Source: Lonicera japonica (lineage: Eukaryota; Streptophyta; Magnoliopsida; Dipsacales; Caprifoliaceae). Taken from it: a stretch of 64,000 bases of DNA. The first letter of the stretch is position 1. Each line of letters starts with the position of its first letter. The translations under genes and the position numbers were made by a program. The stretch spans positions 32,213,234 through 32,277,233 of the forward strand of contig CM038471.1 in the NCBI GenBank assembly GCA_021464415.1, written 5' to 3'. The notes beneath the pieces were generated by a model that was given only the letters and a program-made list of their open reading frames with translations, searched no databases and was not told the origin of the DNA. Below are positions 29,483-53,756 of this stretch, in pieces.

Positions 29483-29487
29483 AAATT

Positions 29488-31451: not shown

Positions 31452-31483
<32 letters not shown>

Positions 31484-32291: not shown

Positions 32292-33470
32292 TCATGGAGA
32301 AGGGGCGGGAAGTCCCTGGCGGTCAAACAGGACTTGCAAGTACTTTTCTATCCGCGAAAGTTGAAGCTCAATCCTTGTTAGCCTATCCTCAAACGATCCT
32401 TGTGATGTAGAAGGTTGATCCACATGCTCAGATATCCTGTCCTCTACTTCGGCTTGAGACAAGTCACGTTGAGTTCGAGTGTTAATAGTCCCTGGTCCAT
32501 AGAAATAGTATTCACCTGCTTTCTTCCCAATTAAACCCATCACTTCCAAACAATGTAAGTCCAATGGTTTAATCTCACAAGCAATATGGAGGTTATTATT
32601 ATCAAGCTCAACCAAATTTTCATTAACGGCTAAGTGAGTAATCAAAGAACCTAAGATCAAAGGCCGTTTGTTTGTCACTACATTAGCAAATTGGGAAGCT
32701 AGCCAACAACCAAGATTCACTTTAATCTTATTTTGCATGCACCATAAGAAATAAAATTCAACTTTAGATAATATTCCAGCTGAATCTTTCCTACCCGAGA
32801 AAGTAAATGCAAAGAACCTATGAATATATTTCAAAACAGGATCTCGAAGGAAGGAATCTTTGGATTTACTTGGGTCATAGGAAACCTTTGATGTTGACCA
32901 TGTTCTATACAATTTTATTGGCTCAAAATTCTCGCTAAAATCGCATGCACTATTCAAATATTCATCAGACTTAGCATATTCTTTAGTAATAAAACCAAAG
33001 GCAATATTAAACTCAGTGATAGAGAGTTTAAATTCCTTCCCCATTAGCCTAAATTGTACTACACTAGGACTATGGAGTGAAAAATCATCAGGCTTCTTGA
33101 ACTCAAACGTGGTATAAAATTCTCTAACAAGTTCGATATAGGCGGGGGTTTGAATAGAGAAATAATTTTGCCAACCTATATTCTCAATTAACTCAAACAC
33201 TTTGTCTTCAATATTCAAAGCACTCAAAGTGGGTTTATGAATATACTTACAGGGAATTATAGCCTTTGAACAAATACCCTTATACATGTCTCGTTCCTTC
33301 TTCGTTGTAAATCGCAAGTGACCATTCAGATCAGATTCAGAGGGTGGGAGAATACATAATCCTTTACCAATTCGTGCCCTCTTATGCGCCGGCGGGGCTC
33401 CGGCGTCGGATTTAGGTTGAGCGGCCCTTTTCTTACCTGAAGGGGCGCTATGATATCCACTTTCCCTCAT
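32292..33470 (-). CDS. Athila extra ORF (env-like position), unit 2
   Basis: 392 residues from the ATG at 33470, the same start as unit 1. In unit 2 the frame is also open about 68 codons upstream, because repeat-length differences in the leader removed the stop. That extension has no ATG and low-complexity content, so I keep the shared start. Differences from unit 1 are few (for example IGWQNYF for ICWQNYF, and LYRTWS for LYGTWS). Function as for the unit 1 copy: unknown, nuclear or nucleic-acid related by composition. Confidence 0.75.
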   Translation of the reverse strand: MRESGYHSAPSGKKRAAQPKSDAGAPPAHKRARIGKGLCILPPSESDLNGHLRFTTKKERDMYKGICSKAIIPCKYIHKPTLSALNIEDKVFELIENIGWQNYFSIQTPAYIELVREFYTTFEFKKPDDFSLHSPSVVQFRLMGKEFKLSITEFNIAFGFITKEYAKSDEYLNSACDFSENFEPIKLYRTWSTSKVSYDPSKSKDSFLRDPVLKYIHRFFAFTFSGRKDSAGILSKVEFYFLWCMQNKIKVNLGCWLASQFANVVTNKRPLILGSLITHLAVNENLVELDNNNLHIACEIKPLDLHCLEVMGLIGKKAGEYYFYGPGTINTRTQRDLSQAEVEDRISEHVDQPSTSQGSFEDRLTRIELQLSRIEKYLQVLFDRQGLPAPSP

Positions 33471-33749
33471 GTGTACGAGTGAGAGATGAAGGTTCCAACG
33501 GGGTAGTAATGGGAATAGAGGCGCGTGACGGAGGCGGTGGCGGTTACGCGCGGCGGTGGCTGGGCGAGGGCGTAGGCAGCAGTGGCTAGGCTTAGTGAAG
33601 ACAACGGAGAGGAAGTGAAGATCGGCGATGGCAGTGACGGCGGGCGGCGACGGCGGCGAGAGTTTGAGCGGCAACGAGCTTCTCTCTCTCTTTCTATCTT
33701 TGTTTGTTTGGGGATAAGAATGGATCTAATGCAGTTTTCTCTTTAATTA

Positions 33750-33786
<37 letters not shown>

Positions 33787-34033
33787 AGCAAAGAATTAAG
33801 GGGGGCTAAGGCGTGGGCACGTCTTATTTCAAAAGCTCTTCTGCCGGAATATATTACTTTACTCTACTAGGCACGCCCACGGCTTACGCAATATCTATTT
33901 CTGCTCAAAAGGTAAATAAAAGCACAAAAAAAAAACAAAAAAAAAAAAAGAAAATAAATGCTAAATTAAAGAAAATTGGGCTGCCTCCCAAGAGCGCTTT
34001 TCTTTAACGTCTTTGGCTAGACGTTGCCATCAC
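33471..34033 (-). promoter_or_regulatory. Spacer between integrase and env-like ORF, unit 2
   Basis: Equivalent to 23478-24038, with a shorter (TC)n run, a different T-run length and an extra GGCGGCGAC-type insertion near 33640. It retains the 18-bp LTR motif (near 33874-33891). Confidence 0.5.
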
Positions 34034-34743
34034 TTAATTGGCGTAAGTAGGACAATCCAAATAGAGCTGATCAACATCATACACTTGAAATCCTTCGTAA
34101 AAAGGTTTCAGACGATGTCCATTGACTTTAAAAAATTTATCAGTGTCCAAGCTTTTTATTTCAACTGCACCGTGAGGAAACACATTAGTAACAATAAAAG
34201 GTCCTAACCACCTAGAACGCAACTTGCCAGGAAATAATTTAAGTCTAGAATGATAAAGTAGAACTTTCTGGCCAACAGAAAAGTGTTTTCTCGAGATCAT
34301 TTGATCATGGAAGGCTTTTGTCTTTTCTTTATAAGTTCTCGAGTTCTCATAGGCATCATTACGAATTTCTTCCAGTTCTTGCAATTGTAATTTCCTTTGC
34401 TTACCTGACTCGTCTATTTCCATGTTACAGTTCTTAACAGCCCAATATGCCTTGTGCTCTAACTCCACTGGAAGGTGGCACGGTTTACCAAACACCAATC
34501 GGTAAGGGGACATTCCTATTGGAGTTTTGTAGGCTGTTCGATAAGCCCAAAGTGCATCATCAAGTCTTAGACTCCAATCCTTTCTATTCGGATTAACGGT
34601 CTTTTCAAGTATGGCTTTAATTTCTCTGTTGGAGACCTCGGCTTGTCCATTTGTTTGTGGGTGATAGGCAGTAGAGATACGGTGAGTAACATTGTATTTT
34701 TTTAGTAAAGCTTCCACCACCCTATTACAAAAGTGAGTCCCGC
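34034..34743 (-). pseudogene. Athila integrase C-terminal part, unit 2, cut by Tat insertion
   Basis: Encodes the integrase from the [13 protein letters not shown] segment through [14 protein letters not shown] to the C-terminal chromatin-facing region and the stop at 34034. The frame is cut at 34743, where the Tat element begins. The missing upstream part resumes at 53757. Confidence 0.95.
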
Positions 34744-36318
34744 TGTGAGAATCCGCAAATGCGGCCCCCCGGGTCTCGTCCCCGTTGGTGGTGGGGGTCA
34801 TGGGACGTCGGAACTGATTCCGTCGTTCCATTTGCTGGAGCGTTTTCGTTGATTCATATCAAGTGTCCCTACGTTCTATTTCTAGATGCAAGGGGGTTCA
34901 TTCAGAGTCGCCAGTACGTTTTTACGAGAAAACGGACAAAAAAGGTCGTGTAAGAGGAAAGGCTATAGACAAGCCTTTCTTTACACGTTTGTCTGCGAAA
35001 CCGGGATTCTTATAGGGTTCGGAAACTATATTACGGTTTGGGAAGGTGTTAAGCACCCATTCCGCCCTTTCGGTCTCTAGTGGTCTTATATGTTTATTCT
35101 ATGTTGAAAAACTTGGATGCTTTTACCGACAGTCTACTACTTTCTAAATAAATAATAAAAAAAAACCCTAATTTGGGAAAACGGGGAAAGGAATGAAAAC
35201 CTTTGTGTTCCGAGATCCGATGTTTTTATATTTAAAAGATGTAATGACAAATGACAAAAACCTTTTATTTTTGAAAGAGTATTCCGTATTATTTCCTCAG
35301 ATAATGACGGTTTTCTCGAGTTGTGATTATTTTGAAAAAAGGTTCGGATCTTTATGTCGGGACTAATTCAATATGGAATTTGAACTCTTTGAGGAGAGTT
35401 TATCAGACACGTCGCAGTCTATAGAGAAGACAGGATATGTTGATTTTAATTCCTAGATAAGTCTTATCAGTCCGGGGTTTGAAAACAGGGTTTATCCGGA
35501 CGATAATGTACTTACTCTTCTGGTTTTGAAAGTAGTTTTATCAGGGTCTTTTGTTTTGAAAACGGTAGACTATTGGTAACTTGACAATAAGTTTATTCAA
35601 ATAAAACGTGGACAAAATAACAGAAGTAAAACAAGTACACAGATATCTAATCTTAAATACTAGAAGGGACTTTCTTTACCTTCCCGACGAGAATAATAAT
35701 AAGAAAGAAAATATAATACGGCAGAGGGATCTCCGGCGATAATAATCTTCTCTTTCTTTAGATATTTCCGAGAAATCGATTCCGGAGACGGGACACGTCG
35801 AGTGTCGAGGATAGATTCGATAATTCTTCAGAAATAAGATAATAGTAGAAAAGTGCTTGATAAAAATCAAATCTAAAGCTCCAAATTCTCAGATTCCAAT
35901 TGCTGCCCCTGAACCCTTGGGGGTGTTGGCCTATTTATACTGCTCGGGAGAGATTGTCGCGCGACATTTCCTTAAAAAAGGAGAATGTCGCGCGACATTG
36001 TGATATGTCGCGCGACATACGGGAATGTCGCGCGACAAACGGCTGAAGTGATGGTTCTGACAGATTGATGTGTCAGAAAGTGGTTGGTCTGGTGCAGAGG
36101 GGGAATGTCGTGCGACATAGTGGAATTGTCGCGCGACATATCAGGGATTGTCGCGCGACAATGTGATATGTCGTGCGACAATCTCTCTAAAGAACAAGTT
36201 TGTCGGGCGACAAACCCTCCTAGTGTAGTACCGGGTCCTCGGGTGGGTCCTGGACCCAAAATAGTAGTTCTCGGAGGTCGTTAGGGTTCTTGCGGGGGTC
36301 ACGGATCGGGTGTCTACA
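34744..36318 (-). repeat. Tat 3' LTR (1575 bp)
   Basis: Plus strand from TGTGAGAATCCGC to GGTGTCTACA. It contains the palindrome cluster at 35955-36212 and a minus-strand TATAAATA box at 35932-35939. Confidence 0.97.
35932..36212 (-). promoter_or_regulatory. LTR promoter: nine TGTCGCGCGACA-type sites plus TATA (3' LTR)
   Basis: Six perfect palindromes start at 35955, 35986, 36006, 36026, 36127 and 36149. Three single-mismatch copies start at 36106 and 36169 (TGTCGTGCGACA) and 36201 (TGTCGGGCGACA). Neighbouring starts are mostly 20-22 bp apart, about two helical turns. On the minus strand the cluster ends 15 bp before TATAAATA (35939-35932). A dimeric DNA-binding protein is the natural reading, but the factor is unknown. 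Confidence 0.75.
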
Positions 36319-36534
36319 GACCCTCTCGACTCAAGCTCCTTGCTTGCAAGGAATTGAGGCGACTGGAAGAGACCTTGATCCATGGCTCCCGCAGGAACTC
36401 TAAGAAAGTGTATGCGTATAGAAGTACTTGTGAGTGCCTCCGGAGAGGGCTTGGCGATTGGTTTGCCTCCGCAGAGGGCTTGTGTTACCTCATTGCCCCT
36501 TTCGAGGACTTTCATTTGTTCCACTTTGCGCCTC

Positions 36535-37005
36535 AGATGGGAGGACTACCGTATGCCTCTCTGGGAGGGCTTCGCCTCAGGTGGGAGGACTACCGTTCGT
36601 GCCTCTCTGGGAGGGCTTCGCCTCAGGTAGGAGGACTACCGTTCGTGCCTCTCTGGGAGGGCTTCGCCTCAGGTGGGAGGACTACCGTTGCTACACCGTG
36701 CCTCTCTGGGAGGGCTTTTTAGATCTTCTCGCCTCATGTGGGAGGACTACCATTGTGCCTCTTTGGGAGGGCTTCGCCTCAGGTGGGAGGACTACCGTTC
36801 GTGCCTCTCTGGGAGGGCTTCGCCTCAGGTGGGAGGACTACCGTTCGTGCCTCTCTGGGAGGGCTTCGCCTTCAGGTGGGAGGACTACCATTGTGCCTCT
36901 CTGGGAGGGCTTCGCCTCAGGTGGGAGGACTACCGTTGTGCCTCTCTGGGAGGGCTTCGCCTCAGGTGGGAGGACTACCGTTGTGCCTCTCTGGGAGGGC
37001 TTCTA
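36535..37005. repeat. 46-bp minisatellite, about 10 units, in Tat 3' region
   Basis: The landmark CTGGGAGGGCTTCGCCTCAG starts at 36561, 36607, 36653, 36706, 36763, 36809, 36855, 36901, 36946 and 36991, so the step is 45-46 bp with two longer units. All plus-strand frames are open here, giving long fake ORFs of repeated WEDYR/VGGLP/LWEGF phrases. Confidence 0.9.
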
Positions 37006-37937
37006 GATCTGAAAGAAGAAGGAAAAAATGCCTCTGGGAGGACTTTCATGAGTAACTTTTGCCTCTGGAGAGGGCTTGTGATTTTGTGTATTGCCTCCGG
37101 AGAGGGCTTGTGTTGGTGAATTGCCCCTCTTAGACTGCTAGAGTGAAAGAGAGTAGATTTTGCGAAGGTAAAAAGAACTTCTCAGGGTCTATTCGGGATG
37201 TCCGTTTCCCTGTATCTTTCTGAACTTTACTCTCATGTTTTCCTCAGGTGAAGATGTTTCACTCAGAAGGCATTTTTCGGATTTCTTTGCTCTCCGTAGG
37301 GTGATGGTCCGAGGTTTTCCAAATCATCTCTTCTGTATCGTGCTGAAAAGAAAATTTGCTTGAAAGTTCAATCTCTGATCTTTATTCTTTTTTTAGTTTT
37401 CTCTTTTGGTGGGCCCACATCGTATTCTGTTTTTTCGATGCCCTTATTTCTCCCTCTTTTGGGAAAGACTTTTCCTGGCCCTCTCTGTTTTTGACCAGGA
37501 GTCCTTTTGTCCCTTTGTCGTGATCAGGAGCCTTACTCACCCAAAACGAAGCTCTGAGCCGGTCTTGGCCTAGCTGTCACTTTTGGTGTGGCTCTCCCTG
37601 TCACTCTGCATTTCTGTTTCTCTCGCTCGCTCTGGGCGCTCATACGGGTTCTTTCTCTTTTCTACTTTTTCAATTTTTTTCCATTCCCGTTTTATCGTGG
37701 CATTCTGCCTTTTCTCTTTATTTGATGGTCTCGGTCCTTCTGTGAGATCAGAGACTACTTTTAATCGCGGCATTCTGTTTTCGCATTTTTTCGGAGAGAT
37801 GATTTGAAAGTTTTCTCTTTGAACTTTTTATCATGGGTGTGCGGTTTTTAGCAATTTTCCGAAAACTGCTTCTCCGAAGTGCCTCTGCAGAAGATAAAAT
37901 GAGACAGAGGTCAAAAAAATCAGGGAGGAGGGGGGAT

Positions 37938-38021
37938 TGTCGCGCGACATTTCGGTGCCTGGCTCTTTGTCGCGCGACAATGTGGCCATTTGTCGCGCGA
38001 CAAACTGACCCACCATATAAA
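37938..38021 (+). promoter_or_regulatory. Antisense gene A promoter: three palindromes plus TATA
   Basis: Perfect TGTCGCGCGACA at 37938-37949, 37968-37979 and 37991-38002, followed 13 bp later by TATAAA (38016-38021). The first ATG of gene A is at 38169. The layout matches that of the LTR but faces the other way. Confidence 0.75.
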
Positions 38022-38168
38022 CCCCTTGCTGAGCTCATTCCACCTCATTCTCTCCTTTCTCTTTCTCTCTCTAGCTCTCTTTTTCTCTCTTTTCTTCTCT
38101 CCCAAGCGCGGAAGCTCTGCCGTGTTTTTGACTTTTCCGACCTTTTCACACATATTCTACCTATATCG

Positions 38169-41100
38169 ATGGACCCGGCTCACCTCGACCGATTAGAGGG
38201 TGACCAGGAGGAGGTCACCTTTACTGACGCTCAGGGCGTTCTTCGCTGCAGCCCTCATCACGACGACTGGGCGGACTTGGACTGGTATGATGAGGATGGG
38301 ATAGACCGCGGTCGGGCGGTGGTCTATCGGGATGCTATCCGAGCTGCTCCAGTCCCGGACGTCCCGTGGCTTTTGATGGAGCCCGTTTCTCACGAGATTC
38401 GTCGTCGATCTCTGGTATGTCTTCTTTCGTGCATTTATTTGTTCTGCTTCTTGTCGTTTCCTGTATTCGTTTTAGATAATGTTAGTATGCATGTCTGACT
38501 AGGAATAACGCCCGATTTTTAGCGAACACATACTTTTACCTGTGATACCTCTTAGTTTAGAAAATTACATAATGTACCCCCATGACTCTATAACTCTCAT
38601 AATTACACCAAAGTACCCTCAGGTTTTGGAAAATCACATAATTTACACCTATAGCTTTATAACTCTCATAATTACACCAAAGTACCCTCAGGTTTTACAT
38701 AATTTACCCTTATAACCCCATAACTCTCATAATTACACCAAAGTACCCTCAGGTTTTGGAAAATTACATAATTTACCCTTATAACCCTCTAACTCTCATA
38801 ATTACACCAAAGTACCCTCAGGTTTTGGAAAATTATTTTACCCTTATAGCCCTATAACTCTCATAATTACACCAAAGTACCCTCAGGTTTTGGAAAATTA
38901 CATAATTTACCCTTATAGCCCTATAACTCTCATAATTACACCAAAGTACCCTCAGGTTTTGGAAAATTACATAATTTACCCTTATAACCCCATAACTCTC
39001 ATAATTACACCAAAGTACCCTCAGGTTTTGGAAAATTACATAATTTACCCTTATAACCCCATAACTCTCATAATTACACCAAAGTACCCTCAGGTTTTGG
39101 AAATTACATAATTTACCCTTATAGCCCTATAACTCTCATAATTACACCAAAGTACCCTCAGGTTTTGGAAAATTACATAATTTACCCTTATAACCCTCTA
39201 ACTCTCATAATTACACCAAAGTACCCTCAGGTTTTGGAAAATTACATAATTTACCCTTATAGCCCTATAACTCTCATAATTACACCAAAGTACCCTCAGG
39301 TTTTGAAAATTACATAATTTACTCTTATAACCCTATAACTCTCATAATTACACCAAAATACCCTCAGGTTTTGGAAATTACATAATTTACCCTTTTAACC
39401 CTATAACTCTTATAGTTACACCACAGTACCCTCACATTTTGGAAATTACATAATTTACCAGTTATAACCCTATAACTCTCATAATTACACCAAAGTACCC
39501 TCAAATTATGGAAATTACATAATTTACCCCTTATAACCCTCTAACTCTCATAATTACACCAAAGTACCCTCAGGTTTTAAAAATTACATAACTTACAATT
39601 ATAACCCGATAACTCTCATAATTACACCAAAGTACCCTCAGGTTTTGGAAAATTACATAATTTACCCTTATAACCCCATAACTCTCATAATTACACCAAA
39701 GTACCCTCAGGTTTTGAAAATTACATAATTTACCCTTATAACCCCATAACTCTTATAATTACACCAAAGTACCCTCAGGTTTTGGAAATTACATAATTTA
39801 CCCTTATAGCCCTATAACTCTCATAATTACACCAAAGTACCCTCAGGTTTTGGAAAATTACATAATTTACACCTATAGCTTTATAACTCTCATAATTACA
39901 CCAAAGTACCCTCAGGTTTTGGAAATTACATAATTTACCCTTATAACCCCATAACTCTTATAATTACACCAAAGTACCCTCATAACCTCATACTCGTTCC
40001 TTTGTCTGCAGTGGGTTGGCCGCGGTTGGGGTTCCCCCAATGCTATATCTTCGGAGTGGCGACGGGCACCGGCCCCTGTCCAGGAGTTGATTCTCGCGAC
40101 TCCTTTTGGCTCCCTCTTCGACGCCCTCCCAGAGCGAGTATCTAGGGCGACAGTTTTAGTATCGGCTCTGGCTTGCCACTGGTGGGACACCACCCATACC
40201 TTTCACTGGAGCTGGGGGGAGATGACGATGACCCCCCTCGATTTGTTTGCTTTGACCGGGATTCCTTCAGGGGGGTCCCCATCCAGATCGACGTCCCCTT
40301 GCGTCTGACAGCCGAGGGCATTGTTAGTTCATTAGGATGGTTTCCGGAGCGACGGAGTTCCGGCGACACGATTCCTCGGGGCGTCTTGGTTACGCGGTTA
40401 GCCACAGAGAGGGCTCGACTAGCTGCTTCAGGGGTTCCTATGACCCGTCAAGAGGCGCGCCAGTATGCCCGCGTCTTTCTTCTATTGACACTCCATGATT
40501 TATTCGAGGCTCGTGGTGGGGACACGGCTCATCTTTGGTGGTTGCCCTATCTTCGGGACTTCAGCCTCATGTTTGACTACGACTGGGGAGGTTTCATTCT
40601 TGCAGTCCTTTACGATGCCATGGACCAGGTCTCTCGTCATTTAGCCCTGAACCTCAAGGGCTTTTCTTTGCTGTGGGAGGTACATTTTTTAGTCTTTCTG
40701 TCTTTGCTTCAGTTCTTTGCTCATTACTTGTTGATCATTGCTGATTTCTTCTATCTTTCCTTTTCAGAGCTGGTTTGTAGCTTATACCCGTCTGGGTCGC
40801 GCCCAGGTGGATCTCCTCGTTGAGAACGAGGACCAGTTCCCTTTTCTCCGCCGATTCATCGCGGGGAACTATAGGGCTCCCTATGTATACCGGACTCGGG
40901 AGACCGGAGCTGCTGCTGTTCATGATCTGCGGGAGGACCAGGTAAAATATTTTTAGTCTTCTTGCTTTTCAATAGTCAGATAGAGTAGAATATATAAAAT
41001 ACTGAAATAAAATCTTATTCTCTTTTCAGATTGAGTGGGCCCCTTGGGGTGATCTGGGTCATCATTATGGGTATGGCCGTGCTCTGACCGCCTCGAGGAC

Positions 41101-42600
41101 CAGGCGGCTTATCCGGGACGAGTACGGCCTTCTCTTCTACTTGGGCGAGAGGGTCATCCGTCAGCATACGCCGTCCCAGTGGCCTCGTGTTCCATTGTTC
41201 CCTCCTGTTCTGATGAGGCGGACGGGCGAGATCGACCCGGTGACGGTGCAGGCTTTGGTTGACGGACTCGGCTTCCAGACGTTCGTCGAGGAGGGAGACT
41301 ATGCTATTTTTGCTGCCCGTTACCTGATGAGGGAGCCGAAGGGGACTCGGGGACGGGTTTTCTATGAGAGGTATCGGGCATTGGGGGGTGATCCTCATTA
41401 TATACGGGGACAGACCCATTTAGCTAGGGTGGTTCCGGGTCATCTGCCACCTGTCCCCGATCAGAGGGACAACATTCCGGATTCTGAGGATGAGGATCCT
41501 GAGGGAGAGAGGGATGTTCCTGCTACGGCTGAGGGCGGCGGTCGGCCAGAGGGCGAGGGAGGTGATGCGACAGCCGTTCCGGAGCCGTCACCTCAGGCGA
41601 CACCTGCGGGGGAGCAGCGCGCTGAGGGCTTCGAGTTTCCCACCGGCCCTTCCGTGTCTCCGGGGGGCCTTTTTGCTGCTGCTGAGGCTGCTGAGGGGAG
41701 AGCGGGATTTTCTGAGAGGTCCTGGGAGCCCGCGGACCTTGGGGCAGATTTTGATCAGTTTGGGCGGACTCCTCCCGCGGCGGCGACTACTCCTTCTAGT
41801 GGGGTACCTCCTTTGGGGGCGACGGCCATGGTGGATCCTCCGGGGGTCCGAACATACGCTACGTTGACCCCTCTACCGGCGACTGTCATGGGGCCTCCCG
41901 CCCGATCTCCGGGCTTTGGTGGCTCATCCTCTCGTCCACCCTTGTTCCCCATTCGTGAGGAGGGAGGGTCTTCTTCTGCAGCTGCTCCTGCGGGGTCATC
42001 TATTTCGTGGGTAGATCTACCTCCACTCCCCAGAGATATTTCTTATGTCGGCGCGGGCCTATGTCGATATTCTGTCCCGGAGTATCCCCTTCCCGAGGAT
42101 ACTTTTGATTTCTTGGGTGGTCGTTCTGATTGTGAGGTATCTTCTTCAACTTCTCCTGATACTTTCATGTTTATATCTATTTATTTTGACTGTGCTGATT
42201 CTCCTTTTATTGTATGTCTTTTTTACAGAGAGTGGGTGTACGGGTGGCGGATCTACGGGCCTGGTATGCCCAGTATTTCTACAGCTGGAACCTGCTCCAG
42301 TACGTCGGTCGAGACCCTCCAGCCTACATGCGTGACTATCAGAGGGCTATCGACATCATCTCTTTACGGCCGGACGACCCCCTGACTTCCTCCCATGCCC
42401 GGACGGATTCTCGGAGGAGCAGTAGTCGGACTTCCCGGCGTTCCCGATCGTCGGTGATCCGTCCTACGGCACCGGTTCAGTCCACGGGGCCTTCTCAGGC
42501 GGCAGTTCCTCCTGTTCCCGGCGTCCCAGTTGTTGATCTTACCCCTGAGGAGGGCTCGGGAGATAGTGGGAGCGTGTCGAAACGCGCCCGAGTAGATTAG
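38169..42600 (+). CDS. Antisense gene A: plant-mobile-domain-like protein, five exons, one frameshift
   Basis: Exons by GT-AG and frame: 38169-38414, 40012-40679, 40768-40941, 41030-42136, 42229-42600. All four introns are phase 0. The product would be about 855 residues if the exon 2 frameshift at the G6 run 40270-40275 is allowed for; as read, exon 2 hits a stop at 40306-40308. Exon 2 (HWWDTTHTFHWSWGEMTMTP, then LFALTGIP) has the hallmark of the aminotransferase-like plant mobile domain. Exons 3-4 continue the helical fold. The later part of exon 4 is Pro/Ser/Gly-rich, and exon 5 ends with an Arg/Ser-rich stretch (SRRSSSRTSRRSRSSV) and KRARVD, possible nuclear signals. The gene lies between pol and 3' LTR on the opposite strand, where Tat elements are known to carry extra ORFs. 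Its role is unknown. Confidence 0.75.
38555..39986 (+). repeat. 69-bp minisatellite filling intron 1 of antisense gene A
   Basis: About 21 units of 61-69 bp, each with AACTCTCATAATTACACC, AAAGTACCCTCAGGTTTTGG and a TTACATAATTTACCCTTATA tail. It occupies nearly all of intron 1 (38415-40011). A plus-strand frame through three units is open by chance at 38890-39111. Confidence 0.9.
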
Positions 42601-42908
42601 TTTTCCCTTTCTGCACTAAGTTGTTAGTTTTGGACAGATGTGCTTAGACAGATATTTAAAATGTTCTTTTATTGGTTTTATAAAATATCTTTATCTGTGT
42701 TTGATTTATACTTTTATTATCTGTCTGTGCAAGATATATACATATATATATAAGAGTCGGTAATTTAAAAGTCGTACCTTCTAGTGTAGTGATACTTATG
42801 TTTCCTGCAAAAAAGAACAAAGTGAGAACAGAAAGCATCCAGAAGTGATTCTTTTGGCAAAGATGACCATTATGTATAAGAAAAAGTAGGGTGCCCCCCA
42901 GATGGGTT

Positions 42909-43016
42909 TGTCGCGCGACAATCCCTCCTGGTCATGGGTTTGTCGCGCGACACTTCCCCTGAAAATGGGTTTGTCGCGCGACAAACAGGTACAGACCCTC
43001 TTTTTTGCTATAAATA
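42909..43016 (+). promoter_or_regulatory. Antisense gene B promoter: three palindromes plus TATA
   Basis: Perfect TGTCGCGCGACA at 42909-42920, 42941-42952 and 42972-42983 (steps 32 and 31). They are followed by TATAAATA at 43009-43016 and, 38 bp further on, the ATG at 43055. Each palindrome sits in a GGGTTTGTCGCGCGACA context, so the group looks like a short tandem amplification. Confidence 0.78.
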
Positions 43017-43054
43017 CACCCATCTTCTTTCCTTCATCCCCACACCTCTCCAAA

Positions 43055-44310
43055 ATGTCTTCCTACCGTACCAACTCTGATTTTTCTTATGTTAAAGCTC
43101 GAGATGCTCTGATATCTTCTGAAAATGGTTTGAACTTTGGTGCATTCAGTTCTTTGGCGGGCTGGTGCCATCGTCCTGTAGATTTCTCCTTTCTGTTAGG
43201 TGCTTTGTATTTCTGGAGTCCTGCGGACCATCTCTTCCGTTTTGGACTAGATGAGCTCTGCCCAACCTATGAGGAGTTCTCCTGGCTGTTACGTTCTGAC
43301 GTTCGTCTCCCGATGGCAGTTCCTATAGAAGGAATCGGTCCCCGCGACATGCTAATTGCTCTGTTAGCCATTCCCCAAGCGGCCTGCGATGGTTTCATTG
43401 TCGACGGGCTCCTTGACCTCCACAAAATGGTGAGGTTCTTTCATCGTTATGAAGATAGGGCCTCTTACGGCGTGGGGCGTACTGCAGCGGCCCTGATTTG
43501 CCTGGTTTCTGATATGCTGCTGGTGACGGGTTCTTCCCGTGTTGATCCGACTATCTTGAGTCTGATTTACCAGGCTAGAAATGGGGAGTCTATAGTGCCG
43601 ATCATTCTTGCAGAGACCCTGAATGGTCTTGATGATGTTCAACGGGGGGCCTCGCCCTTCTTTCGGGGGAGCCCGCGTCTGCTATACATGTGGCTGCTAG
43701 AGCGCTTTCGATCGGTGGGTTTCAGCGGAGTTCGGCTCGACAATCCGACTCATTTCTTCCATCGGCCTCTCTTTGGTGCTTTGACCATGTCTTCCTCTGA
43801 TTGGACGGTGTGGTTTTCGGAGAACTTTCGGGCTATCCGGTGGAACATTCCTTGGTGGAAGCTGAGGAAGATGGTACTTAGTACTGGGGGTCAGAACTAC
43901 GTTCGGCTCCGCGGGCTCTGGTTTACTTCCTTTTATCTCCCTGGGCGTCTTCTTCGACAGTTTAACATTCCTCAGGAGGTTCCCCTTGGTCTGAACAACT
44001 TCTCTTCTGAGTCTAAATTTGTGACCCCACATGTTTCTTTATCGGTAAGAGGATGTGGCGTGCTCGACTGACTCGTCAGTTTAACTATGCTCGTTTCGGT
44101 ATTTCCAGGCCTCTCCGGGCTGACATTATCCGCTCTTGCTGGCAATCTCTAGAAGGAGAGCTGATTGATGACCCCTTTCAAATGGAGTGGTTCCGATTCA
44201 TGGATTCTGAGCCTACAGAGGATGGCATTGTCTTTGCGTACCAGATTTTGGATGAGGCTCGAATTGATTTGGCCGCTGAGGACCCAGTGTGGCCAACCCC
44301 TAGGGATTAG
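43055..44310 (+). CDS. Antisense gene B: uncharacterised plant retroelement ORF, one frameshift
   Basis: The ATG at 43055 (MSSYRTNSDFSYVKARDAL) follows a TATA box by about 40 bp. The frame runs to 44071, but sequence that clearly continues the protein (RMWRARLTRQFNYARFG) lies in the next frame from about 44047 to the stop at 44310. One base is therefore out of register at 44043-44052; a 60-bp intron (GTAAGAG...TTCCAG) was tested and does not restore the frame. The intended length would be about 418 residues. The phrases FSSLAGWCHRPVDFSFL and FRFGLDELCPTYEEFSWLL recall a domain of unknown function (DUF7745-like, from memory) found in plant transposon-related proteins. It is Trp-rich with no catalytic motif that I recognise. 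It is convergent with pol, ending 225 bp from the integrase stop. Confidence 0.7.
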
Positions 44311-44535: not shown

Positions 44536-45965
44536 TTATTGATAATACTTCTTCAGTCGGTCCATGTTGACTGGTGAATGTAGTAACTGCCCGTCTAGGT
44601 CAGTGAGTATAGCGGCGCCTCCTGTATTGATTTCTTTGACGATATACGGCCCTGTCCACTTCTGCCCGAACTTTCCCCTCGGATCTCTGGCTGGCTCTCG
44701 AATTTCTTTCAACACGATGTCATTTTCATTGATACCCCGAGTCCTCACTCTCTGGTTAAATGCTCGAGCGATTCTCTTCTGATACCCTTGATGGTGGTAT
44801 GCGGCTTTCAATCTTTTCTCATCTAGTAAGGCTAGCTCGTTATAACGTGCCTGGACCCACTCCAGTTCATTGACCTGATTCTCTAGCATTACTCTGAGGG
44901 AAGGGACCTCTAACTCGACAGGGAGGACTGCCTCCATCCCGTATGTAAGCGAGAACGGGGTTGCCCCGGTAGAGACTCTTTCGGTGGTGCGGTATCCCCA
45001 CAATGCATATGGTAATTTCTCTGGCCAGTCCCGGCAGGTGTCGGTCATCTTGCTTAGGATATTCTTCAAATTCTTGTTGGCGGCTTCAACTGCCCCATTG
45101 GTTTGCGGTCTATATGGCGAAGATTTGTGTCGGGTGATACCGTATTCCTCCATGACTGTATTAGCTTCTCCTTCGAAGTGGGTGCCGTTATCTGAGATGA
45201 TCTCGTGTGGGACCCCATATCGGCAGACAATATTCCTTTTGATGAATCGGGCAACTTTCCTGGCATCCAGGGTTTGGTAAGATTCGGCTTCCACCCATTT
45301 GGTGAAGTAGTCGATGGCTACTAGTATGAATTCATGGCCGTTGCTGGCTTTGGGTGAGACTTTCCAATGACGTCAATTCCCCAGGCTGAAAAAGGCCAGG
45401 GAGCAGTCATGTTGTACAACTCTTTTGGAGGAAGCTTCTGGGACTTAGCATAAATTTGGCATTTGTGACAACGGCGTACATGATCAGCGCAGTCAGTTTG
45501 TAGGGTAGACCAGAAATACCCTTGCCTGATGATCTTGCGGGCAAGCGTATGCCCGCTCATATGAGGTCCGCAATCGCCCCCATGTATCTGATCCATCATT
45601 CTAACCGATTCTTCTTCGGTGAGACATTGAAGATGAGTCCCGTCGTAGTTCCTTTTATACAATCTTCCGGCACAGAGTATGAATCCTGATGCTAGTCTCC
45701 TGAGTGTGACCCGCGTTCTCTTGTCTGCTTTCTCGGGATACTGATGGTTCTTCAGCAGGTTCCAGATATCATAAAACCAAACGGTTGAGTCACCGTCTTT
45801 TTCAATTTCCACCTCAAGGGTCATGCAGTGGGCGGGTCCTGATTTCTTTTGTACCGTGAGGGTTATTTCTTCCATCCCCTCCGGAATATTGATCATAGAT
45901 GCCAGGGTTGCCAATGCGTCAGCAAAACTGTTTCTGGGACCTGGGGATATAGTAAAACTCCACAC
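44536..45965 (-). pseudogene. Tat integrase region, separated from pol by two frameshifts
   Basis: From 45965 the frame gives the end of the second RNase H (FADALATLAS), then the HHCC zinc region (HTLARKIIRQGYFW; CHKCQIYAK) and the first catalytic aspartate (WGIDVIG). It breaks near 45356-45364, where one base appears lost. The following frame (45294 to the stop at 44536) carries the second aspartate (IISDNGTHFEG), the glutamate segment (YRPQTNGAVEAANKNLKNIL) and the C-terminal domain with KWTGPYIV. Upstream, an A4 run at 45924-45927 (plus strand) is where the main pol frame is lost. All catalytic residues survive; only the frame is broken. Confidence 0.9.
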
Positions 45966-48900
45966 GCTCGAACCTTCCTGCGACTTCTTCTAGTCGGGCG
46001 AGGTAAGGGACTAATTTCTCATCTCTGATCTTCCATTCCTTCAGAACTTGATGGACCACTAGTGCTGAATCTCCGTATACCTGTATTCTCTTTATACCCC
46101 TTTGAAGAGCGATCTCTAACCCGAGTATGCAGGCTTCATATTCGGCCATATTGTTGGTGCAGAAGAAGTCCAGTCGATATGATACCGGGGAGTGAGTTTG
46201 GTCTGGAGAGACTAACAGGATGCCTATCCCGTTTTCGTTCCGATTGGCGGCTCCGTCAAAGTACAACCTCCAGTCTTCATTGATCTCGACGTTCATGATG
46301 GTTTCGTCCGGGAATTCGGCTTCTTCTATCATGTCTCCCAATATCGGATTGTGGGCCAGGTAATCAGCTATGATCTTGCCTTTGACTGCCTTCTGGGTCA
46401 TGTAGGTGATGTCGAATTCGGAGAGTAGAAATAACCATTTTGCCATTCGATTCGAGAGAGCCGGTTTCTCGAAGAGGTATTTCAACGGATCAATCCGTGA
46501 TGCCAGGATGACTGGAAAAACTAGCATGTAGTGCCGTAGTTTCTGTGTTACCCAGACGAGAGCGGTACACGATTTTTCTAATGGTGTGTAGTTTATCTCA
46601 AATGGGGATAGCTTTTTGCTGAGGAAATAGATGGCCTGCTCCTTCCGGGTATCGGTGAGGTGTTGGGCTAGCATTGCTCCCGCGGCTGAATCAGTGACGG
46701 TTAGGTATAGAATTAGTGGTAGTCCGGTCTGAGGCGGGGCTAACACTGGGGGCTTGGAGAGGTAATCTTTGATTTTGTCAAAAGCCTCCTGGCATTGATC
46801 GTTCCATTCTCCTGTTGAAGACTTCCTCAGGAGTTTGAAGATGGGTTCGCACTTTTGAGTGAGCTGAGAGATAAACCTACTGATGTACTGCAGATTACCC
46901 AAAAAACCCCAGATTTCTCTCTCGGTACGAGGCTCGGGCATGTCTTGGATAGCTTGAACTTTAGCGGGGTCCACCTCGATTCCTTTCTTACTGACGACAT
47001 ATCCCAGGAGTTTTCCTTTGGTTACCCCGAACACACATTTCTGCGGGTTGAGTCTCATCTGATACTGGCGGAGCCGATCAAAGAAGGCTCGCAAGGCTGG
47101 TACGTGGCCTTCCCTCTCTTTTGACTTGATTATCATGTCGTCTACATACACCTCTACTTCTTTGTGAATCATGTCGTGAAAGATAGCCGTAGCTGCCCTC
47201 TGATATGTTGCCCCGGCGTTCTTCAGCCCAAACGGCATAACGGTGTAGCAGTATGTTCCCCACGGTGTGATAAATGCTGTTTTCTCCTGGTGATCCGGGT
47301 GCATCTTGATCTGGTTATATCCGGCAAAACCATCCACAAATGACTTCAGGGCGTGGTTGGCAGTATTATCTACTATCAAATCGATGTTGGGCAATGGAAA
47401 ATCGTCCTTTGGACAAGCTTTATTGAGATCCCGGTAATCCACACACATGCGAACTTTCCCATTAGCCTTTGGAACAGGCACGATGTTGGCTAACCACGAG
47501 GGGTACTCGATCACCCGTAAGAATCCCACACTCAGTTGTTTTATTACTTCTTCTTTCACTTTCAAGGACCATTCTGGCGTAAGTTTCCTCAGCTTCTGTT
47601 TGACGGGCCTAAGTTCTGGATTGGTGTGTATTTCGTGCATGACTATCTGACTGTTCAAACCCGGCATATCTGCATAAGACCAGGCGAAGACATCCACATA
47701 CTCTTTCAGAGTTTGTGTGAATTCTTCTCTCTCTGTCCCACTTAGGCTTGCCCCAATGCGGACCTCTTTTCTTTCCTCCTCTGTTCCGAGGTTAATCACA
47801 AGAGTGTCTCCTTCCTCGCTTTGTATACGTTGCTCCTCCCGTTCAGGGTGTTCGTTCATTCTTTCCAATTCCATATAAGCAATTACAGAATTAAAAATAA
47901 CAGGATAACGCAAAATAGACTCTTCTTTATTGATACTAGTATTTACAGGTACAAGTTTAAAAAGTTCATTTAGGAGTGACTCCTTCCTATCCTTATCCTC
48001 ACTCTTATCTCTCACCCTTACAATTTCGCTCTTTTCCCTTTCCCCTTGGTAGTCTGGATCAGCGTATATCAAGTGTACAGGGTCGTCTCCTGGCTCATCA
48101 TCTCCCAGAGCCATGATGTCGAAGAGATCTCCGATCATTTCTTCCTCTTCGCCTTTCATGTCTTCACTTTCTTCCTTCGGCCCGATTGTCAACTTGGTAG
48201 CGAAGCTGTGTACGGTGTTTTCTTTGATATATAGGTCCTCTTCATAGAAGATTTCCCACCCAGGAAGGTTCTCTCCGTCGCTGTTTCTCCAAGGCTCCTG
48301 GAAGCCGCAAAAGGGGAAGTCCTCTCCTTCTTTGACAAAGAACCCGTTCAGAGAGCTGAAACTCGGATACTGATGCCCTCGACCCCTTTTTTGTTGATCG
48401 TCCTCTTCAGTGTGTTGGTACCCCAAACCTTCCCTCTCGTACCTTGCTACTGGTTCCAATGCTTGAAGTAGTCCTGGTTGTCCCATTCCCAGACCGGCTC
48501 CAGGCAAGTATTTCATCATTCTCAACATATTTGTAATCTTGGTGCTGAGACCGGGGATATTGTCAGGGGGAAGATACCTGATTGTCTGGGTGCTAAGAGT
48601 TTGCACTTGAGGCTCGTAAGAAAAGCCTCCTAACTGTATGCTCTGGCTCCCGATTCCCAAAACTGGTAACTCCATATCCGCCAAGGTCCTTTCAGGATCT
48701 CCTTGGATGGTAATTATGTTCCCTTCAAACGGTATCTTGATCTTTTGGTGCAAGGAGGAGGGGAGTGCTCCTATGTCGTGTAGCCATGCTCTTCCCAACA
48801 GTAGGTTAAAACTGGAAGGAATGTCTATGATTTGAAAGTCGGCCGGGAAGCTTCCGGGACCAACCATGAGATCAAGTTTCAGAGACCCCAGAACGGCCCT

Positions 48901-50115
48901 CCTGGTATTATCATAGGCCCTGACGGTTACAGCGGATGGTGAGAGCTCTGAATCTGAGATACCCAAGCATCTGGCAGTCTTTAGGGGGCAGACATTTATG
49001 GTCGACCCATTGTCGATGAGAACTTGTGGCAAGATCTTCCCTCGAGTTCGGACGGTGATATGGAGAGCCAGGCTGTGTTTTCTCCCCAACGGAGACAAGT
49101 CTTCATCTGAAAATGACAGACTTCTTTGGACTGTGAGTGACCCGATCATGTTTGGCAGTTGTTCGGGCGTGGAGTCCGGCGATATGACAGCCTCATCCAG
49201 GAGTTTAATGAAAGCGGTCCTGTGAGGTTTGGAGGCAACCAAGAGGCCCCAAATGGTGATGTGTGCCTGGGTTTTCTTCAACTGTTCCAGTACTCGGTCT
49301 TCTCCTACTTCTTTTGGAGGCGGTGATTTTTCGGCATCCATCGGTGGTGGCTGGTATACCTTTCCTGAGCGGGTAATCTGTTGTATCCAAAGGGATGTTG
49401 GGTCTGATCCCTCTGAAGTTTCTGACGACTCTGGTTCTGCCGACCAACTAAAAGTCCCGGGGGAGGTTTCTGTCATACAGATTGTCTCCTTATGAGGGGG
49501 GCGGGGTTTCCATGGTTGTTTTTTCTTGTCCTGGGTCCATCCTATCCCAGCTTTCCCAGGATTGGTTTTGATGGTGAGTGGTTGCGAGATCCCCTGATTT
49601 GTCTTTCCTAAGCCCTGCCCAGGTAGGAAGTTCATCTTGGCCATCCATTGGTCAATTATTGGGTTGAGGCCTGGGGCAACTTGTGCTTTTGCCGATAGCA
49701 TAACGGGTGCCTTATAGGCTGGATCGTCCCGAATGCGTCCTACGGGATCGAAGCCTTCGTCAGTGGTTAAGGCGTTAATTCCTGCAGGTGGAGCATGATT
49801 GGGGAGGGGGTTGTTGGTAACATTGGGCCCGCCAGGTGCGGGGATGGTTCCGGCTTCAATGAGGTCCTGGATACGATGGCGGAGAGCTAAACAACGTTCC
49901 GTGTCATGGCCTGCCGCCTGATGGTACGCACAGTTCTCATTCATTCTCCAAGTGTTGGGGATAGGATTTGGTGGAGGGCGTGGGTTGAGTGGGGTGACTA
50001 GTCCGGCCTTTTGGAGTAGTTCCAGGCTTTTGACCAGAGTAGTGGGGAGGGTGCAGAAATTTCTCCTTTTCTTGACCTCGGTGTTTGAAGAGTCTCCTTG
50101 CGTAGGCCAACTCAT
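45919..50115 (-). CDS. Tat pol: protease, RT, RNase H, archaeal-type RNase H
   Basis: 1398 residues from the ATG at 50115. In order: Cys/His motif NCAYHQAAGHDTERC near 60; G-patch-like LPGQGLGKTNQGI near 163; protease with DNGS (usual DTGS) near 368; second G-patch-like LPGAGLGMGQPG near 537; acidic linker about 640-770; RT with KVRMCVDYRDLN and YVDD near 991; first RNase H near 1138, reading LYLTVTDSAAGAML so the usual first aspartate is gone; second, archaeal-type RNase H from LYFDGAANRNENG (near 1284) with NNMAEYEA and GDSALVVHQ, all acidic residues kept. The second RNase H is diagnostic for the Tat lineage. The frame ends early at 45919 because of a frameshift before integrase. The start overlaps the gag stop in ATGA. 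Confidence 0.92.
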   Translation of the reverse strand: MSWPTQGDSSNTEVKKRRNFCTLPTTLVKSLELLQKAGLVTPLNPRPPPNPIPNTWRMNENCAYHQAAGHDTERCLALRHRIQDLIEAGTIPAPGGPNVTNNPLPNHAPPAGINALTTDEGFDPVGRIRDDPAYKAPVMLSAKAQVAPGLNPIIDQWMAKMNFLPGQGLGKTNQGISQPLTIKTNPGKAGIGWTQDKKKQPWKPRPPHKETICMTETSPGTFSWSAEPESSETSEGSDPTSLWIQQITRSGKVYQPPPMDAEKSPPPKEVGEDRVLEQLKKTQAHITIWGLLVASKPHRTAFIKLLDEAVISPDSTPEQLPNMIGSLTVQRSLSFSDEDLSPLGRKHSLALHITVRTRGKILPQVLIDNGSTINVCPLKTARCLGISDSELSPSAVTVRAYDNTRRAVLGSLKLDLMVGPGSFPADFQIIDIPSSFNLLLGRAWLHDIGALPSSLHQKIKIPFEGNIITIQGDPERTLADMELPVLGIGSQSIQLGGFSYEPQVQTLSTQTIRYLPPDNIPGLSTKITNMLRMMKYLPGAGLGMGQPGLLQALEPVARYEREGLGYQHTEEDDQQKRGRGHQYPSFSSLNGFFVKEGEDFPFCGFQEPWRNSDGENLPGWEIFYEEDLYIKENTVHSFATKLTIGPKEESEDMKGEEEEMIGDLFDIMALGDDEPGDDPVHLIYADPDYQGEREKSEIVRVRDKSEDKDRKESLLNELFKLVPVNTSINKEESILRYPVIFNSVIAYMELERMNEHPEREEQRIQSEEGDTLVINLGTEEERKEVRIGASLSGTEREEFTQTLKEYVDVFAWSYADMPGLNSQIVMHEIHTNPELRPVKQKLRKLTPEWSLKVKEEVIKQLSVGFLRVIEYPSWLANIVPVPKANGKVRMCVDYRDLNKACPKDDFPLPNIDLIVDNTANHALKSFVDGFAGYNQIKMHPDHQEKTAFITPWGTYCYTVMPFGLKNAGATYQRAATAIFHDMIHKEVEVYVDDMIIKSKEREGHVPALRAFFDRLRQYQMRLNPQKCVFGVTKGKLLGYVVSKKGIEVDPAKVQAIQDMPEPRTEREIWGFLGNLQYISRFISQLTQKCEPIFKLLRKSSTGEWNDQCQEAFDKIKDYLSKPPVLAPPQTGLPLILYLTVTDSAAGAMLAQHLTDTRKEQAIYFLSKKLSPFEINYTPLEKSCTALVWVTQKLRHYMLVFPVILASRIDPLKYLFEKPALSNRMAKWLFLLSEFDITYMTQKAVKGKIIADYLAHNPILGDMIEEAEFPDETIMNVEINEDWRLYFDGAANRNENGIGILLVSPDQTHSPVSYRLDFFCTNNMAEYEACILGLEIALQRGIKRIQVYGDSALVVHQVLKEWKIRDEKLVPYLARLEEVAGRFERVEFYYIPRSQKQFC

Positions 50116-51419
50116 TGGGGGACTTGCGGTGACTGCTGAAATGGGTTTTGTTGATATGGGTACGAGCTTAGTTGGTTTACGGCTGGAGTGGCCGTCTTTC
50201 TTCCAGTGTAAGAGGCCTTCTTGGTATCCGTGTCTGCCTTTCTGGTCAATTCTTCCTCTACCTGTGACCCCATACTCAACAGGGCTCTGAAGTGTGGGAA
50301 TACATGCTTTCCCATGCAGTTCAATACAGCTGGAGTAAAATTCTTCTGTATGATTTCTAACTGCTCTTCTTCGTCGGGCCGTTTGGACATTTGGGATGCC
50401 ATTTCCCTCCAGCGGGTGACAAAGTCGCTGAAGCTTTCTTTCTCGCCTTGCTTGGCCATTTCCAGGTGTTTACGGGTAATTTCCAAATTCTCGTTGGACC
50501 CGTACTTGGTCATGAATTCTTTGACGATATCCCCCCAAGTTTTCGTGTGGTGTTTCTCTAGGTCGAAGAACCATCTCAGGGCTGCCCCCGTGAGAGTCAT
50601 GTGAAAAGCCTGAGCCAGCTCCGGCTCTCCACAGCCGGACACTTGCATGGATCTGATGTAGGATTGGAGATGGGTTTTGGGGGGTGTAGTACCAGTGAAT
50701 TTGGTGATAGAGGGGAGCTTAAATCCTTGAGGTAGTCTGGCTTCTGGGTAGAGGGAAAAGGCGTTCATGTCTGTGATCTCGTCTGCCCCTTTCATCAGAG
50801 AAACACCTCTTTGCAGAACCTTCATCTGCTCTTTCAATTTCTTCATTTCTTCGCTCTCTCTTGACACCTCATCGGGCTGTTCCCGGGCTATCATCGATTC
50901 TGCGTATACTGCCCGGAGTCGGTTGATGTCTGGGTACTCATTGGGAGGGGCTATTGGGGCTGGTGGAATAGGTCTTGCGGGGACTTGTGGCCATGGTTGA
51001 TATTGGGGATCGAGGCCTTGCTGAGGTTGTGGCCAGACGATGGGTGGCTCTTGTTGTTGGTATGTGGGGCCTGAATCCGGGGCCCATTGGTTCTGATTGT
51101 TGGGGTCGGTTTGAACGGGACCGGCCATGTTGGGGCCCGTTTGGGGTGGATTAGTTCCTTGGATTGGGGGAAGTACTTGTGAAGACTGTCCTTGGTTCGG
51201 ATCACGATTCGGTGGTAGTCGATCAAACCCCGGTGGTGCAGTTCGTTCGGCTGACAATTCTTCTATTCGGATTCGGGTACCCTGTTGCTCGTTCATGAGA
51301 TTTGCTAGATCCCTGCTGACGGTCATGAGTAAACGGTGCATTTCGGCTAGGGTTGGCTGAGCTGATGATGCCTCGGCTCGGCTCTGATCTGTCTCTCGAT
51401 TCTCGCGTTCATCGGCCAT
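50112..51419 (-). CDS. Tat gag
   Basis: 435 residues from the ATG at 51419 (MADERENRETDQSRAEASS). The N-terminal third is Pro/Gln-rich linker; the capsid-like gag domain spans about residues 230-400 (FTGTTPPKTHLQSYIRSM; ALRWFFDLEKHHTKTWGDIV; FSDFVTRWREMASQM). It would form the particle that encloses element RNA. No CCHC knuckle is seen in gag itself; a CxxH...C motif lies early in pol. The stop TGA overlaps the pol ATG (ATGA at 50115-50112), which suggests reinitiation or frameshifting rather than a fused polyprotein. Confidence 0.92.
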   Translation of the reverse strand: MADERENRETDQSRAEASSAQPTLAEMHRLLMTVSRDLANLMNEQQGTRIRIEELSAERTAPPGFDRLPPNRDPNQGQSSQVLPPIQGTNPPQTGPNMAGPVQTDPNNQNQWAPDSGPTYQQQEPPIVWPQPQQGLDPQYQPWPQVPARPIPPAPIAPPNEYPDINRLRAVYAESMIAREQPDEVSRESEEMKKLKEQMKVLQRGVSLMKGADEITDMNAFSLYPEARLPQGFKLPSITKFTGTTPPKTHLQSYIRSMQVSGCGEPELAQAFHMTLTGAALRWFFDLEKHHTKTWGDIVKEFMTKYGSNENLEITRKHLEMAKQGEKESFSDFVTRWREMASQMSKRPDEEEQLEIIQKNFTPAVLNCMGKHVFPHFRALLSMGSQVEEELTRKADTDTKKASYTGRKTATPAVNQLSSYPYQQNPFQQSPQVPQ

Positions 51420-52181: not shown

Positions 52182-53756
52182 TGTGAGAATCCGCAAATGC
52201 TGCCCCCCGGGTCTCGTCCCCGTTGGTGGTGGGGGTCATGGGACGTCGGAACTGATTCCGTCGTTCCATTTGCTGGAGCGTTTTCGTTGATTCATATCAA
52301 GTGTCCCTACGTTCTATTTCTAGATGCAAGGGGGTTCATTCAGAGTCGCCAGTACGTTTTTACGAGAAAACGGACAAAAAAGGTCGTGTAAGAGGAAAGG
52401 CTATAGACAAGCCTTTCTTTACACGTTTGTCTGCGAAACCGGGATTCTTATAGGGTTCGGAAACTATATTACGGTTTGGGAAGGTGTTAAGCACCCATTC
52501 CGCCCTTTCGGTCTCTAGTGGTCTTATATGTTTATTCTATGTTGAAAAACTTGGATGCTTTTACCGACAGTCTACTACTTTCTAAATAAATAATAAAAAA
52601 AACCCTAATTTGGGAAAACGGGGAAAGGAATGAAAACCTTTGTGTTCCGAGATCCGATGTTTTTATATTTAAAAGATGTAATGACAAATGACAAAAACTT
52701 TTTATTTTTGAAAGAGTATTCCGTATTATTTCCTCAGATAATGACGGTTTTCTCGAGTTGTGATTATTTTGAAAAAAGGTTCGGATCTTTATGTCGGGAC
52801 TAATTCAATATGGAATTTGAACTCTTTGAGGAGAGTTTATCAGACACGTCGCAGTCTATAGAGAAGACAGGATATGTTGATTTTAATTCCTAGATAAGTC
52901 TTATCAGTCCGGGGTTTGAAAACAGGGTTTATCCGGACGATAATGTACTTACTCTTCTGGTTTTGAAAGTAGTTTTATCAGGGTCTTTTGTTTTGAAAAC
53001 GGTAGACTATTGGTAACTTGACAATAAGTTTATTCAAATAAAACGTGGACAGAATAACAGAAGTAAAACAAGTACACAGATATCTAATCTTAAATACTAG
53101 AAGGGACTTTCTTTACCTTCCCGACGAGAATAATAATAAGAAAGAAAATATAATACGGCAGAGGGATCTCCGGCGATAATAATCTTCTCTTTCTTTAGAT
53201 ATTTCCGAGAAATCGATTCCGGAGACGGGACACGTCGAGTGTCGAGGATAGATTCGATAATTCTTCAGAAATAAGATAATAGTAGAAAAGTGCTTGATAA
53301 AAATCAAATCTAAAGCTCCAAATTCTCAGATTCCAATTGCTGCCCCTGAACCCTTGGGGGTGTTGGCCTATTTATACTGCTCGGGAGAGATTGTCGCGCG
53401 ACATTTCCTTAAAAAAGGAGAATGTCGCGCGACATTGTGATGTGTCGCGCGACATACGGGAATGTCGCGCGACAAACGGCTGAAGTGATGGTTCTGACTG
53501 ATTAATGTGTCAGAAAGTGGTTGGTCTGGTGCAGAGGGGGAATGTCGTGCGACATAGTGGAATTGTCGCGCGACATATCAGGGATTGTCGCGCGACAATG
53601 TGATATGTCGTGCGACAATCTCTCTAAAGAACAAGTTTGTCGGGCGACAAACCCTCCTAGTGTAGTACCGGGTCCTCGGGTGGGTCCCGGACCCAAAATA
53701 GTAGTTCTCGGAGGTCGTTAGGGTTCTTGCGGGGGTCACGGATCGGGGTGTCTACA
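52182..53756 (-). repeat. Tat 5' LTR (1575 bp)
   Basis: Nearly identical to 34744-36318. It carries the active promoter of the element in the minus direction and ends against the second CCCGC target copy. Confidence 0.97.
53369..53649 (-). promoter_or_regulatory. LTR promoter: nine TGTCGCGCGACA-type sites plus TATA (5' LTR)
   Basis: Perfect sites start at 53392, 53423, 53443, 53463, 53564 and 53586; variants at 53543, 53606 and 53638. The TATAAATA box is at 53376-53369 on the minus strand. The same three positions are variant in both LTRs, so the variants were present in the source copy and did not arise after insertion. Confidence 0.75.

Follow-up and report, generated by a model that had tools for sequence, protein, structure and literature searches.

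How might a retrotransposon that carries genes on both of its strands coordinate their transcription? The question is raised by a 64,000-nucleotide stretch of the Lonicera japonica genome (contig CM038471.1, positions 32,213,234 to 32,277,233; referred to as the window), which holds a 19-kb minus-strand long terminal repeat (LTR) retrotransposon of the Tat clade, Ogre/Retand-type, with two genes, A and B, in antisense orientation. Clusters of one 12-bp palindrome, TGTCGCGCGACA, lie just upstream of the TATA boxes of its LTR and of both antisense genes. An initial annotation took these clusters as the mark of one dimeric factor, captured from the host or encoded by A or B, that controls the sense genes and the antisense cargo together. 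As a whole, this interpretation is partly supported by the present analysis, which covers the sites of one element in one window. The palindrome, TGTCG-CG-CGACA with A/T flanks, is probably a protein operator common to the three promoters.

Palindrome clusters at three promoters

The window contains 18 exact copies of the 12-mer, compared to none in 100 dinucleotide shuffles, which rules out a chance origin of the clusters. When up to two mismatches were allowed, 24 sites were found against 0.46 expected; the six non-exact sites all have one mismatch, and all 24 are confined to four clusters, those of the 3' LTR, the 5' LTR, promoter A and promoter B (Table 1). Since the 5' LTR cluster is the reverse-transcription duplicate of the 3' LTR cluster, the distinct sites number 15 (9 + 3 + 3), 12 of them exact and three one-base variants. 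The clusters at the LTR, A and B lie where the initial annotation had placed them, with the gaps that it gave to the TATA boxes of A and B. Its statement that no copy occurs elsewhere in the window does not hold, as the 5' LTR carries the same nine sites, as expected of an LTR pair. It had also described nine perfect sites in the LTR; the number stands, but only six of them match perfectly, the other three each differing by one base. By length, the window has 118 distinct palindromes of 8 bp, 57 of 10 bp and 11 of 12 bp, and once two-letter palindromes (AT-only, GC-only) are set aside, the 12-mer and its own cores alone reach at least three copies within 150 bp. Scans for paired palindromes returned 0 stretches in viral contigs and eight in prokaryote contigs, the latter serving as a background rate alone; both contig sets may leave out records from the window's own genome. 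The exact 12-mer string is also present in the excerpted text of a paper on chicken PRMT4.

At all three promoters the cluster is followed, 13–25 bp on, by a TATA box oriented into the gene (TATAAATA at the LTR and at gene B). For a position drawn at random from the element, the frequency of a TATAWA motif 8–30 bp further downstream is 0.0092 (plus strand) or 0.0188 (minus strand), and the gene-oriented presence of this motif at three of three promoters has a probability of about 1.6e-6 if the promoters are independent and with the reservation that the 8–30 bp range was chosen after the gaps were known. With the 12-mers masked, the promoters are without convincing similarity: BLAST at E up to 1 gave no match between A and B, none between the LTR and A, and a single 10-bp match (E 0.27) between the LTR and B. 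Promoter copying therefore fails as an explanation, and a single promoter copied three times is rejected.

Internal pattern and spacing of the sites

The architecture of the site suggests recognition by a dimer, with invariant half-sites, a variable centre and A/T flanks; one dyad site of this build at three promoters is what the initial annotation had described. The three variants among the 15 distinct sites all differ at the central pair, the half-sites TGTCG and CGACA being invariant, and of the two bases that flank the sites on each side, 60 in all, 59 are A or T. CpG is readily lost from methylated DNA. The sites of promoter A (37900–38030) hold nine CpG, with one outside them (5.7 expected), those of promoter B (42880–43040) hold nine with none outside (6.6 expected; again 9 v 0 in a wider stretch, with 9.8 expected), and those of the LTR U3 region hold 24 with four outside (9.0 expected). 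Spacings between sites are of 20–23 and 30–32 bp, plus one of 80. The mean resultant length for helical phasing was 0.71 at 10.5 bp and 0.82 at 10.0 bp, and the best value between 10 and 11 was reached by a fraction of 0.0001 of 20,000 random spacing sets. We do not rely on this phasing, because similar scores are obtained with periods of 9.9 and 11.8 and tandem duplication accounts for part of the arrays.

Promoter B in a relative

The gene-B relative P0001, a gene model of Lonicera macranthoides, begins within promoter B. Two places within its first 60 residues, 32 nt apart (31 in the window) and read in separate frames, are codon-compatible with the 12-mer, and a TATAAATA-compatible stretch follows 26 nt past the second site (25 in the window). 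Compatibility with the 12-mer was found at 0 of 14,910 other positions of the fetched proteins, a background counted for the 12-mer only. Judged by codon compatibility rather than by DNA, and in this one relative, two promoter-B sites appear to be present in a diverged family member. The spacing in this relative is shifted, by one extra base in each of the two intervals. Residues 1–41 of P0001 form an N-terminus that looks like translated DNA of the palindromes and TATA box; it is an artefact of annotation, but one that bears on conservation.

The antisense genes and a candidate binder

The five exons of gene A were proposed from splice-site consensus and open frames. Its four introns fall between codons of adjoining frames, and a frame break leaves exon 2 with a length that three does not divide. 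The boundary of exons 4 and 5 is backed by one relative, P0011, which joins at the proposed point; P0012 and P0014 run into intron sequence and provide no test of the boundaries. Introns of an antisense gene can presumably persist, since they lie on the strand opposite to that of the genomic RNA and are not spliced from it. The first part of exon 2 matches the plant mobile domain (PMD; PF10536, E 8.4e-9, 35.5 bits against a cut-off of 34.9), the remainder of exon 2 gives a PMD match below the cut-off, and the other four pieces of gene A have no Pfam match at E up to 1. By inspection, the C-terminus SKRARVD of gene A, kept as SKRARID in P0011, looks like a nuclear signal. Among the relatives of gene B, P0002 has DUF7745 above the cut-off. 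The kinship of A and B is read from Pfam matches only, because BLASTP found no direct similarity between P0001 and the latter part of exon 2 in gene A. The relatives predicted in L. macranthoides match at 95% for B, and at 93%, 87% and, for a chimera, 66% for A. In another model of that species, P0013, a gene-A-like piece is fused to an En/Spm-transposase-like stretch (PF03004, 28.0 bits against a cut-off of 28.7). In viral contigs, 37 pattern matches to an alignment of gene B and three to pol included no relative, nor did a relative emerge from a search of prokaryote contigs with P0001 (seven pattern matches).

The mechanism that we propose would have a symmetric, dimeric DNA-binding protein recognize the palindrome arrayed just upstream of the three TATA boxes. 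One factor would thus govern how much gag-pol and new genomic RNA the LTR promoter yields and, together with this, how active the antisense promoters A and B are, and if A or B encodes it, a feedback loop would arise in which the factor tunes its own supply along with LTR transcription. It could be a repressor, or else an activator or an anti-silencer of the VANC kind. A and B, as the element's own extra genes located behind the sites, are the candidates of choice. That the binder is encoded by the element, most likely by A or B, has in our estimate slightly less than an even chance; a binder encoded by the host is less likely. Evenly poised is the explanation as a whole, with its shared operator, dimeric factor and putative element-encoded binder. 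The most specific form of the proposal, a retrotransposon regulon in which a PMD-type protein of A or B binds a single palindromic operator at the LTR and at the two antisense promoters alike, in a closed feedback, we put forward tentatively, as somewhat the less likely outcome.

Several observations weigh against this mechanism. Pfam recognized no DNA-binding domain in A or B, a sequence search of the PDB gave no match for P0001 and two irrelevant weak matches for P0014, the structure model for gene B, that of P0001, is too poor to search with (mean predicted local distance difference test score, pLDDT, 49.7), and each of A and B has one frame break in the present copy. Whether MAIN and MAIL1, which are PMD proteins, make contact with chromatin was unknown to the authors of the excerpted accounts (PMC7156037, PMC9899485). 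Variation of the site is confined to the LTR, and unmasked single sites of different promoters have flanking bases in common, up to 19 bp in total. Sites, flanks and spacings within a cluster are not independent, because the arrays of the LTR and of promoter B look tandem-duplicated. The argument from CpG retention is limited as well, since the contrast weakens when promoter A is widened to the ATG (nine inside v six outside, 11.7 expected) and the LTR beyond U3 is not CpG-poor (53 v 42.7 expected). Finally, a host dimer would account for the same anatomy.

Alternative explanations

A host transcription factor could have been recruited by the element to all three promoters, with A and B outside the circuit. 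Clusters close to promoters, dyad symmetry and the TATA spacing suit any dimeric activator equally, and among known cases LTRs more commonly recruit host factors, as heat-responsive LTR elements do with heat-shock factor. The half-site TGTCG resembles the core of auxin-response-factor sites, and the 12-mer is one base off an E2F site on each strand. The candidates compared were E2F, CAMTA and auxin-response factor alone, and none fits well. The E2F motif TTTSSCGC has six matches in the window against 4.6 expected; none is at the clusters, and E2F is rejected as the identity of the site. On inspection the 12-mer does not satisfy the CAMTA consensus vCGCGb, and auxin-response-factor dimers need 7–8 bp between their hexamers, compared to 0 here. 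In our judgement, 10 of 12 bases invariant over 15 distinct sites also seems stricter than most host sites. Recruitment of a host factor is considered rather unlikely.

The palindrome could also be a functionless by-product, a GC-rich unit spread in the element via tandem duplication and template switching. This would agree with the arrays that TRF called at the sites, of period 20–21 in the LTR and 31 in promoter B (the cluster of promoter A was not called tandem), and with a longer arm, GGATTGTCGCGCGACA, common to one site from each of the three promoters. Yet the half-sites are invariant in promoters that otherwise lack convincing similarity, the cluster adjoins the TATA box in every case, and P0001 retains two sites despite neighboring length changes, which makes a by-product quite improbable. 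Least probable is a role in RNA, in which self-complementary stretches pair two genomes like a retroviral dimerization loop: by their coordinates the 15 internal and 3'-LTR sites would fall in genomic RNA, and the core is GC-rich and self-complementary, but such a role does not predict the positions of the TATA boxes, the stretch from the TATA box of the 5' LTR to gag is free of sites, and the mRNAs of A and B should begin downstream of their own sites.

The retroelement and its surroundings

The site-bearing element was called Tat-type in the initial annotation, and its domains agree. A second RNase H (aRH), the hallmark of the Tat clade, follows the first in the pol open reading frame (ORF; RT_RNaseH at 1132–1234, RVT_3 at 1286–1396) and precedes the integrase, which is matched in the two ORFs that follow downstream. 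Placement of aRH between RNase H and integrase is described, in excerpt, as a mark of Ogre and Retand elements (PMC6317226). The Transposase_28 domain (PF04195), reported in an antisense ORF of all but two Retand clusters (PMC11963269, in excerpt), gave no match with E as high as 1, either in the one piece searched for gene B or in the six for gene A. A PMD, present in an extra ORF in 57% of Ogre elements by the excerpted account (PMC6317226), is found above the cut-off at the start of gene A exon 2. The lack of a Transposase_28 match and the PMD point to Ogre; the arrangement of gag and pol, which overlap by 4 bp where Ogre has two polyprotein ORFs about 274 bp apart on average, does not. Our assignment, based on domains alone, stops at Tat, Ogre/Retand-type.

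The two LTRs differ by seven mismatches and two gaps, and a 5-bp target duplication, CCCGC, flanks the element; the sister element at about 24748 shows the target stretch without interruption. Two Athila-type elements (19488–34743 and 53757–59838) apparently stand head to tail, with a middle LTR (29481–30824) in common, as expected from unequal LTR recombination; judged from the repeat pairs, the Tat element would then have entered the second Athila. The interruptions of the integrase, gene A and gene B frames suit decay or assembly error alike. Both long tandem arrays are of a kind reported for Retand elements.

Table 1. Features of the Tat element, in window coordinates
Feature	Position	Strand	Remarks
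Nine-site cluster, 3' LTR	35955..36212	.	12-mer search; upstream of TATA box; exact sites start at 35955, 35986, 36006, 36026, 36127, 36149; one-base central variants at 36106, 36169, 36201
Nine-site cluster, 5' LTR	53392..53649	.	12-mer search; same as 3' LTR
Three exact sites before gene A	37938..38002	.	37938, 37968, 37991
Three exact sites before gene B	42909..42983	.	42909, 42941, 42972; ~31-bp tandem units
LTR TATA box	35932..35939	-	TATAAATA; 15 bp past last site
Gene A TATA box	38016..38021	+	TATAAA; 13 bp past last site
Gene B TATA box	43009..43016	+	TATAAATA; 25 bp past last site
Gene A	38169..42600	+	Proposed exons 38169-38414, 40012-40679 (frame break near 40272), 40768-40941, 41030-42136, 42229-42600
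Gene B	43055..44310	+	PMD/DUF7745-like, below both cut-offs; frame break near 3' end, ~44000-44050
3' LTR	34744..36318	-	1575 bp; TG...CA ends; 99.4% identity to 52182-53756
5' LTR	52182..53756	-	1575 bp; paired with 3' LTR; carries nine sites
gag	50112..51419	-	PF03732
pol, part 1	45919..50115	-	G-patch, reverse transcriptase, RNase H, second RNase H (RVT_3)
Integrase	44536..45965	-	Two ORFs, not read through; H2C2 45321-45965 above cut-off, rve core 44536-45294 below
Tandem array, 69 bp x 21	38556..39982	+	TRF; gene A intron 1
Tandem array, 46 bp x 10	36529..37003	+	TRF; between gene A promoter and 3' LTR

Comparison with known systems

The element is like other Tat elements (Retand, Grande with its gene23, Ogre) in the position of aRH, the long region between pol and the 3' LTR, the antisense ORFs and the tandem arrays (PMC7264820, PMC11963269, PMC6317226, all in excerpt). 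It differs in having two antisense genes, PMD-like and with no Transposase_28 found, and its LTR of 1575 bp and internal region of about 15.9 kb exceed the ranges excerpted for Retand clusters (315–1,194 bp and 7,380–12,869 bp; PMC11963269). Grande gene23 has a promoter of its own that drives its transcription, and it encodes a nuclear protein (PMC7264820); a regulatory role is suspected for the antisense ORFs of Retand and Grande (PMC11963269, PMC7264820), as far as the excerpts go. A site common to the LTR and the antisense promoters was not found in the excerpts of PMC11963269, PMC7264820 and PMC6317226, our coverage of the literature being incomplete.

The VANC proteins offer a plant case in which tandem repetition has built up arrays of a short motif and a transposon protein reads them (PMC5735166, PMC10398659, in excerpt). 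Both systems have such arrays in non-coding element DNA near genes, here in the LTR and in promoter B; in contrast to the present retrotransposon, VANDAL is an Arabidopsis DNA transposon, the motif YAGTATTAY is not palindromic, and binding of VANC21 was established by chromatin immunoprecipitation sequencing and electrophoretic mobility shift assay, compared to sequence only for our site (PMC5735166, in excerpt). The VANC21 motif is not enriched in the window (one match against 2.2 expected) and is rejected as the identity of the site. TnpA of En/Spm is element-encoded and regulates its own promoter via many 12-bp, CG-containing subterminal sites. In this it resembles the proposed circuit; it differs in belonging to a DNA transposon and in its other, non-palindromic motif.

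A link between PMD proteins and a promoter motif is also known for MAIN, MAIL1 and PP7L: in the excerpted accounts, a set of genes depends on MAIN and MAIL1 for its expression, and 25 of these 26 genes have the DOWN motif (PMC7156037, PMC9899485). This motif, CATGCAGTTT, is unrelated to the palindrome and not enriched in the window (0 exact matches; seven with one mismatch against 4.5 expected), so that DOWN is rejected too.

Significance

Antisense ORFs were present in all recently active Retand elements surveyed, where, in the excerpted text, their role is unknown and regulation is merely suggested (PMC11963269). A shared operator gives this suggestion a concrete target, namely DNA to be bound and three promoters to be changed. 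If the proposal is true, the PMD and TRP28 ORFs that Tat elements carry in antisense would regulate in trans, through operators specific to each family. In Arabidopsis, PMD proteins take part in controlling genes and in silencing transposons (PMC7156037, PMC9899485, in excerpt), and the circuit, if true, would hint at what PMD proteins did inside transposons.

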